Assembly: GCF_002982115.1 (NCBI RefSeq)
Contig: NZ_CP019980.1
Span: forward strand, 1,620,001 to 1,684,000
Source: Lysinibacillus sphaericus
Lineage (GTDB): Bacteria; Bacillota; Bacilli; Bacillales_A; Planococcaceae
Direction of reading: 5' to 3'
DNA length: 64,000 bases
Below, one piece after another: positions 46,866-48,828 of this stretch; within the stretch, counting starts at the first letter, position 1; each line of letters begins with the position of its first letter. The notes beneath the pieces are model-generated. The model saw only the letters and a list, made by a program, of their open reading frames with translations, was not told the DNA's origin and did no database searches. Made by a program: the position numbers and the translations under genes.

Positions 46866-47762
46866 ATGTTACTTGGCTCACATGTTTCAATGAGCGGCAA
46901 AGAAATGTTGCTCGGCTCTAGTAAAGAAGCTCTTTCTTATGGTGCGAACACCTTTATGATTTATACAGGTGCTCCACAAAACACGCGTCGAAAATCCATT
47001 GCAGACCTTAATATTATGAATGGTCTGTTGCACATGAAAGAGCACGGCATGACAAATATTGTTGTGCATGCTCCTTATATTATTAATATTGCTAATACAG
47101 AAAAACCAGAAACATTCCGTCTCGGTGTAGATTTCCTACAATCTGAAATTGAACGCACTGCTGCGTTGGAAGCTACACAAATAGTTTTACATCCTGGTGC
47201 CCATGTAGGTGCAGGGGCAGATGCTGGTATTGCTAAAATTATTGAAGGTTTAAATGAAGTACTTTCACAAGACTATCCCGTGCAAATTGCATTAGAAACA
47301 ATGGCAGGGAAAGGAACAGAGTGTGGACGTTCTTTCGAAGAGCTTGCAAAAATAATCGATGGTGTGACACATAACGAGCGCCTTTCTGTATGCTTTGATA
47401 CATGCCATACACATGATGCTGGCTATAATATTGTTGAAGATTTTGATGGGGTATTAAACGAGTTTGATAAAATAATCGGTGTAGATCGCATCAAAGTTCT
47501 TCATATAAATGACTCTAAAAACGTTCGTGGTGCAGGTAAAGACCGCCATGAAAATATCGGTTTTGGACATATCGGATTTGATGCATTAAAATACGTGGTT
47601 CATCATCCGCAATTAATGGCGGTACCGAAGATTTTAGAAACACCATTTGTTGCTCTAAATAGTGATGCGAAAACTAAAACAGCACCGTATAAATATGAAA
47701 TTGATATGCTACGTAGTGGAGAATATAAGCCAGAGCTTATTAACGCCTTACGAGGAGAGTAA
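46866..47762 (+). CDS. nfo: endonuclease IV (AP endonuclease)
   Basis: Cuts DNA 5' of abasic sites in base excision repair. The 298-residue TIM barrel has the three-zinc ligand motifs [44 protein letters not shown] and HINDSKN...[11 protein letters not shown]. Starts 12 bp after cshB with AAGGAGG, so one operon. A clean terminator follows, then the 21-bp periodic repeats. Confidence 0.96.
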
Positions 47763-47768
47763 GAGAAC

Positions 47769-47812
47769 CGTAGACCAACGCAATGCAAATTGTGTTTGGT
47801 CTACGTTTTTTT
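47769..47812 (+). terminator. intrinsic terminator after nfo
   Basis: CGTAGACCAA (47769-47778) with TTGGTCTACG (47796-47805), then a T run to 47812. Confidence 0.88.
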
Positions 47813-47818
47813 ATGAAT

Positions 47819-47931
47819 CGCGGGTAAACGAGGCTATATCGCGGGTATTTGAACGGCTTCCGCGGGTAAAGAGAGTTTTATCGCGGGTATTTAAACACCA
47901 ATCGCGGGTAAACAGTTTAAATTCGCGGGTA
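47819..47931. repeat. six CGCGGGTA motifs at exact 21-bp spacing
   Basis: Identical octamers CGCGGGTA start at 47819, 47840, 47861, 47882, 47903 and 47924: every step is 21 bp. What follows alternates: TAAA after copies 1, 3 and 5; TATTT or TATC after copies 2, 4 and 6, so the larger unit is 42 bp. The 13 bp between motifs are otherwise unlike each other. On the plus strand one frame reads (S/P)RV every seven residues, but it has no start or ribosome site of its own. Not a CRISPR: repeats and spacers are too short. Confidence 0.92.
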
Positions 47932-48012: not shown

Positions 48013-48828
48013 ATGGAAATAATTACTGATAAATTAATTATGATTGCTTTATTTATTCTCATCATTCATTCAATCGAGACACTTGCCTATGCGGTACGTT
48101 TATCAGGGGCACGTGTAAAGTTACTAGCTTCAGCTTTATCTCTGTTTAATGTAATGGTGATGGTTTCAAGGCTAGCGAATATGATGCAACAACCGTTTAC
48201 GGGGAGTTTAGTGGATACAGCGCCTGCTGACAATGCGCTAGCTTTTGTAGAAAGCCAATATCGCTTTATTATAGGAGCGGCATCATTAGGGACACTAATG
48301 GGGATATTATTACTGCCGACTTTCGTAGCCATCTTTTCACGAGGCATCATTCATTTGGCTGAGGAAAGAGGGTCGATTCCAGCTTTATTGAAGAAAGGCT
48401 TCACATTTGACTATGTAAGAAGAGGTATTAAACATATTCGCAAGCCAAGCTTGGCTTATGTAAAGGGCATTGGCTTACGAGATATTCCAGTTAAACTATT
48501 TGTGATGAACATTGTGATTACAGCGATTTATACTATTGGTGTTTTATCTTCTTTATATGCTGGTTTATTAGTCCCTGAATTAAAGGCAACAGCTGTCATG
48601 GCGTCTGGATTAATCAATGGCGTAGCAACAATTTTGTTAATTATTTTTATTGACCCTAAAATTTCTATACTTGCGGATGATGTTATCAATCAGCGGGGAA
48701 GTTATCTTGATTTAAAAAGAGCATCTGTTATGATGATGACCTCTAGATTTTTAGGAACGATTTTGGCGCAAGTGTTATTTATACCTGGGGCACATTATGT
48801 AGCTTGGTTTGCAAAGCTTATTACTTAG
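48013..48828 (+). CDS. amj: lipid II flippase Amj
   Basis: The 271-residue membrane protein has about six hydrophobic segments. IHSIETLAYAVRLSGARVKLLASALSLFNVMVMVSR and ANMMQQPFTGSLVD are the strongly conserved beginning of the Amj family (YdaH in Bacillus subtilis). That protein flips lipid II across the membrane when MurJ is absent. In Bacillus subtilis amj is induced by cell-envelope stress through sigma-M; I see no clear sigma-M promoter here. The site before the ATG is weak (AGGTATAGAG). Located between the 21-bp repeats and a terminator, hence monocistronic. Confidence 0.93.
   Translation: MEIITDKLIMIALFILIIHSIETLAYAVRLSGARVKLLASALSLFNVMVMVSRLANMMQQPFTGSLVDTAPADNALAFVESQYRFIIGAASLGTLMGILLLPTFVAIFSRGIIHLAEERGSIPALLKKGFTFDYVRRGIKHIRKPSLAYVKGIGLRDIPVKLFVMNIVITAIYTIGVLSSLYAGLLVPELKATAVMASGLINGVATILLIIFIDPKISILADDVINQRGSYLDLKRASVMMMTSRFLGTILAQVLFIPGAHYVAWFAKLIT

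Follow-up and report, generated by a model that had tools for sequence, protein, structure and literature searches.

Intergenic octamer arrays in Lysinibacillus sphaericus as probable recognition sites of a NERD-domain protein

The window analyzed here is a 64,000-nucleotide stretch of the Lysinibacillus sphaericus chromosome (NZ_CP019980.1, positions 1,620,001 to 1,684,000), in which a short direct-repeat array begins just past the terminator-like hairpin that follows nfo (Table 1). The whole window holds seven copies of the octamer CGCGGGTA against 0.49 expected, a number reached in 0 of 100 shuffles. The original prediction, made from the sequence of the window, described six identical octamers with every step 21 bp long, and this is exact at all six positions. 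The strictness of the 21-bp register holds for the window array but not elsewhere, where steps of 19, 20, 40, 41 and 42 bp occur. Likewise, the proposed 42-bp alternation was recovered here by Tandem Repeats Finder as a period of 42, the bases after the octamers being TAAA and TATTT by turns (TATCT after the sixth copy), but genome-wide it is found in only some arrays. The gene on the downstream flank, whose product we take to be Amj-like, has a homologue in 30 of the 32 Lysinibacillus genomes, with G013 and G024 giving partial matches. At the orthologous site of G029, a close relative, the window array showed no octamer changes and seven spacer changes; the nfo site of G021 is read as holding a degenerate remnant only.

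Table 1. Features at the window array and the gene of its candidate partner protein. Positions are those of the window unless a genome and contig are given.
Feature	Position	Strand	Remarks
nfo (name from the original prediction), upstream flank	46866..47762	+	Open frame, 298 aa
Terminator-like hairpin and T tract 3′ of nfo	47770..47812	+	Identified by reading the sequence
Six-octamer array of CGCGGGTA	47819..47931	+	Starts 47819, 47840, 47861, 47882, 47903, 47924; 13-bp variable spacers
271-aa gene, downstream flank	48013..48828	+	Open frame; anchor for orthologous sites in relatives
NERD and zinc-ribbon gene, 323 aa	G000:C1:4070909-4071877		Outside the window, 2.4 Mb away

A search of the window's own genome (G000; 4.68 Mb, one contig) for CGCGGGTA repeated at 21-bp spacing returned 151 pairs, and none for the reversed control pattern. 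The control pattern, ATGGGCGC, did itself occur in 21-bp steps in G178, G179, G182 and G190, all from a different genus; these four genomes probably carry arrays of a different motif. The original prediction had turned on whether other phased arrays exist, and at least 28, of 3 to 78 copies each, were placed against predicted genes in G000; this list is a minimum, comprising 100 of the 151 pairs plus five further arrays met separately. Chains in the G000 stretches examined, at one octamer mismatch or fewer, contained 229 steps of 21 bp, 33 of 19 bp, five of 42 bp, four of 40 bp and one of 41 bp; 20-bp steps are present in the relative G011. The arrays are intergenic, and they lie near gene 3′ ends: 10 have convergent neighbour genes, 18 tandem and none divergent, and 16 of the 18 tandem-gene arrays were closer to the 3′ end. 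Within 621 kb of tiles, which include stretches picked near arrays, 22.6% of intergenic bases were divergent and 12.2% convergent, and array placement deviated from the tiles with p = 0.001 per deviation by bases and 0.006 and 0.007 by regions. The gene calls behind both placement and tile composition came from our own simple script.

Short G000 arrays have diverse spacers and are mostly co-oriented with neighbouring genes. In long arrays the spacers are pyrimidine-rich and the orientation is mostly opposed to that of the neighbours, leaving the gene strand purine-rich over the spacers. One array of 78 copies and 1.7 kb, with higher-order repeats, lies at G000:C1:4473189 (L171). Spread by plasmids or phages was considered and rejected, since a blastn search of plasmid and phage collections with this array gave no match, although low-complexity filtering could mask matches.

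Conservation of the arrays was followed in G029, where an array was present at 27 of 28 G000 sites and one site was anchored on a single flank. At the G029 counterpart of the 78-copy site, a search for an array of two exact octamers found none. Array length, which the original prediction had proposed to compare between strains, differed between G000 and its relative by whole units. Across 119 aligned units, 23 of 952 octamer positions had changed versus 197 of 1547 spacer positions, under a unit filter that favours conserved octamers (at most one octamer mismatch in G000 and two in G029, with nine or more of the 13 spacer positions matching). Eleven of the 23 octamer changes were G/A at octamer position 6. 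Unit positions 9 and 20 changed only 2 and 4 times, and the conserved site extends beyond eight bases, reading about W-Y-CGCGGGTA-W-W.

The same alignments bear on the rival that the original prediction had itself named, a decayed protein with an (S/P)RV heptad encoded in one frame of the array. In this frame, 28 of 56 spacer changes fell at third codon positions and 11 of 56 were synonymous, the latter count standing without a computed neutral expectation. Stops were few, occurring in 2 of 52 units of spacer-diverse arrays, where column shuffles gave 7.3, and in 0 of 140 units of the remaining arrays, where they gave 2.5. The third-position excess in the spacers and the scarcity of stops point towards coding. 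Inside the octamer the third codon positions (2, 5 and 8) changed 3, 1 and 0 times, not above the other positions. The octamer is therefore constrained as nucleotides, which makes a decayed SRV protein unlikely.

Exact CGCGGGTA triples were found in 13 of the 32 Lysinibacillus genomes and triples with up to three mismatches in 24 of them, while exact pairs were found in 23 of 261 family genomes, spread over 4 of 19 genera. CGCGGGTA triples at 21 bp were also seen in unrelated genomes, among them Geomonas paludis (L078, L138) and Siminovitchia thermophila (L088, L159). The locus of a conserved array, read in 30 genomes, adjoins the gene for a protein with a nuclease-related (NERD) domain. Among 119 stretches around arrays, mostly of 8 kb, a NERD gene was found at Lysinibacillus loci only, and at none of L078, L138, L088 and L159. 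An orthologue of the G000 protein is present in 19 of the 32 genus genomes at 61% identity or more, other homologues reaching at most 39%, and at 19 of 19 loci the gene has an array on its downstream side. All 19 genomes have at least seven near-exact triples, as against 0 to 2 in 12 of the 13 genomes without an orthologue (Fisher, 6e-8). The sole exception, G031, has no orthologue, 74 near-matching triples, no exact triple and three exact pairs, counts that would fit array decay after a recent loss of the gene. Two of the 19 gene copies, those of G013 and G026, are interrupted, and G026 has the most mixed octamers. On a neighbour-gene tree of 28 genomes the presence label needs seven changes, of which six are forced, and 52 of 500 shuffles needed as few; given these seven changes, the match between gene and array does not reduce to a single division of the genus. 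Presence differs between sisters in pairs such as G002/G003, G028/G015 and G018/G023, and G003 is read as retaining a remnant of the NERD gene.

The G000 protein scored 59.1 bits against PF08378 (NERD), above the cut-off of 22.1, and five paralogues scored 57.8 to 62.8 bits. The score against PF12760 (IS1595-type zinc ribbon), 20.3 bits, is below the cut-off of 25.4; the four cysteines are invariant all the same among ten diverse family members, as are E46, D81, E94 and K96, and the nuclease domain appears to retain catalytic-type residues (PD-(D/E)XK-like). The structure model has a C-terminal helical domain, weakly modelled (mean pLDDT 62.7; residues 261-270 average 62), and the C-terminal end is predicted to be a winged helix. 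A PDB sequence search with a 10-row profile gave a best E of 0.011 and no convincing relative. Among PADLOC and NCBIfam defence families there was no full-length match; partial matches in the NERD region were to PglW, PDC-M16A and MAD6, and the NCBIfam defence matches reached at most 31 bits versus cut-offs of 460 and 990.

The association of NERD genes with arrays extends to paralogues. Of 51 paralogous NERD genes in the genus, 43 pass a lag-21 test within 700 bp downstream, compared with 22 of 986 random control windows, drawn from G000 alone; other lags from 12 to 39 never exceeded four of the 51 loci. The test counts positions at which a 7-mer recurs 21 bp on, so that one repeated 9-mer can give three. 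A family match, in some cases weak, was present in 26 of 27 genomes of other genera, and downstream sequence was sufficient at 26 of their loci, of which 18 pass the test and a further four show an upstream signal only. By this test, 8 of the 51 loci in the genus and 4 of the 26 in other genera are without an array. The motif varies by paralogue group, GACGGATA, TGGATAG, TTCCGATAAA, TCGATAAA, CGCTGATAA and others being represented among the 70 NERD homologue matches used, of roughly 100 listed. Of the 32 genus genomes, 26 have near-exact GACGGATA triples; the six without them are G000, G010, G013, G021, G027 and G029. As assigned from the available loci, they are found in 21 of 22 genomes with the matching paralogue and 5 of 10 without it, and GACGGATA arrays follow their proteins less well than CGCGGGTA-type arrays do. 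In G021, CGGCGAT arrays flank the second NERD gene and recur at four other places within 400 kb. The second NERD homologue of G000 contains a stop, and no second lag-21 family was over threshold in 813 kb of G000 loci.

Octamer letters also differ between lineages. In G007 and G008 nearly all octamers among the copies listed are CGCGAGTA; those of G030 are mostly CGCGAGTA with some loci mixed, G026 has a mixture, and G027 has CGCCGGTA at two places. The octamers counted at eight G008 loci were CGCGAGTA in 85 of 85 cases, the count taking only octamers that fit CGC[GC][GA]GTA or CGCGGATA. Four of these eight loci are orthologous to mostly-CGCGGGTA arrays in other species, with one (G004, L268) mixed. 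A 400-kb portion of G021 contained 29 CGCGGAAT pairs and no CGCGGGTA pairs. Nine G000 array sites were sought in this genome: three carry CGCGGAA-type arrays, 4079144 is without an array, the anchors of 4040073 are about 2.5 kb apart, and 3875166, 3897443, 4222990 and 4242237 were not anchored on both flanks. At G021:C1:2071336 and 2090025, both orthologous to G000 sites, CGCGGAA is followed by A or T, which mirrors the AA/TT alternation after CGCGGGTA. As judged from the sequences, the octamer has switched at several separate orthologous loci per genome, to CGCGAGTA in two lineages and to CGCGGAAT in one.

Two columns of the protein, R to Q and S/N to I, separate G007, G008 and G030 from 13 CGCGGGTA genomes, and R to Q is also found in G021 and G027. 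In the structure model the former is residue 265, at the end of helix 255-267, and the latter residue 286, at the start of helix 286-295. As a baseline, 70 comparable lineage sets were compared; four of them, the observed set included, have one or more exclusive columns in common. Grouping G007 and G008 with one distant genome gave no such columns for seven genomes, one for G028 and two for G030. The interrupted copies of G013 and G026 were left out of both comparisons, and G021 and G027 were also outside the comparison group in the second. The coincidence of R to Q in the C-terminal domain with the octamer switches is suggestive but falls short of proof. Arginine typically reads G and glutamine A. 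The Q-bearing paralogue G024_L335 misfits a simple R:G / Q:A rule, and in another paralogue group K is found in place of R in the four members whose motif is TGGATAG.

Taken together, these data indicate that the window array probably belongs to a set of 28 or more arrays, distributed over the chromosome, that are recognized by a NERD, zinc-ribbon and winged-helix protein. The idea in the original prediction that a protein reads a signal in the DNA has good support from the constraint on the octamer, the co-occurrence of gene and array, and the switching of the octamer at multiple loci. The C-terminal domain would read one octamer per protomer, with adjacent protomers spaced by about two helical turns (19- and 20-bp steps also occur), and selection for binding would preserve the octamers while the spacers drift. 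There is also a reasonable case, somewhat better than even, for a new general kind of system, in which every such paralogue would have intergenic 21-bp arrays of its own throughout the genome, several pairs would coexist per genome (400 kb of G021 contain two motif families), and protein specificity and tens of arrays would switch together, like a chromosome-wide centromere or drive system. As for a role, the likeliest, though of low probability in itself, would be a nucleoprotein barrier near gene 3′ ends, limiting read-through or marking chromosome addresses; the window array lies behind a terminator and is therefore not an obvious read-through block.

A selfish drive is a doubtful alternative, and one that is compatible with the reading as recognition arrays. 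Here the NERD protein would nick or cut the motif, and repair between neighbouring units would expand, homogenize and re-seed arrays that are useless to the host, as might be suggested by the retained nuclease-type residues, the whole-unit shifts in copy number, the private motifs of paralogues and the long homogeneous arrays of up to 78 copies, the largest of which was not found at its G029 site. Arrays that are old, with diverged spacers around near-perfect octamers, argue against such a drive, because conversion of units would copy spacers too and mutated sites should escape cutting. Under the drive, arrays would be missing from promoter regions through the purging of insertions there. That the arrays act as RNA, transcribed near gene 3′ ends and read as transcripts by the NERD protein or another factor, is improbable: the location near 3′ ends would suit such a role, but both orientations relative to flanking genes occur, and the window array is beyond the terminator. 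Very little likelihood attaches to a neutral interspersed satellite without a partner, linked to the NERD gene by hitchhiking from the gene-adjacent array; the constant array behind the orthologue is what such hitchhiking would leave, but array presence and letters at many distant loci track the gene, and the paralogues are accompanied by other motifs. A decayed or cryptic (S/P)RV-heptad repeat protein is scarcely credible, despite the two residual coding points of few stops and excess third-position changes, given a frame broken by 19-bp steps, synonymous changes numbering 11 of 56 in the spacers, octamer third positions that are no freer than others, and non-synonymous octamer changes in other lineages.

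The interpretation of the arrays as recognition sites proposes a DNA target for NERD, a widespread bacterial domain, and nature offers matched sets of proteins and sites, including lost genes and motif switches, on which protein-DNA co-evolution can be tested directly. It also raises the question whether other orphan interspersed bacterial repeats have a dedicated nuclease-like partner too. Arrays with cooperative binding proteins, partition proteins among them, are familiar from ParB/parS and RHH centromeres, where a DNA-binding protein has multiple cognate sites. The present arrays differ from these in numbering tens of intergenic arrays per chromosome, with several protein-array pairs per family.

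Among described repeats, the STAR elements of staphylococci are similar: they too are direct repeats scattered through intergenic regions, with a signature that stays constant, spacers that differ from locus to locus, changing copy number and an abundance that depends on the lineage, and their function was still undescribed in 2012 (PMC3532100). Their signature, T(G/A/T)TGTTG(G/T)GGCCC(C/A), is 14 bp long with at least 40 bp between copies, and the account of them describes no partner protein (PMC3532100), whereas the present arrays have 8-12 bp at 19-21 bp. An assignment to STAR elements was rejected, the STAR signature being absent and CGCGGGTA at 19-21 bp found instead. The TAACTGA direct repeats of Beggiatoaceae are also abundant, short and intergenic, but have another motif and are proposed to be part of a possible post-transcriptional network (PMC4679880). 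The NERD domain is common to the array-linked family and SmdA of Staphylococcus aureus, which is described as a cell-division membrane protein without several of the most conserved NERD residues in a paper that called the functional importance of NERD in bacterial proteins unstudied in 2022 (PMC9040797). The array-linked family differs from SmdA in its zinc ribbon and C-terminal helical domain. A search of the open-access literature found no report tying NERD proteins to repeats. The CGCGGGTA string was met there in one paper, on an amplicon method.
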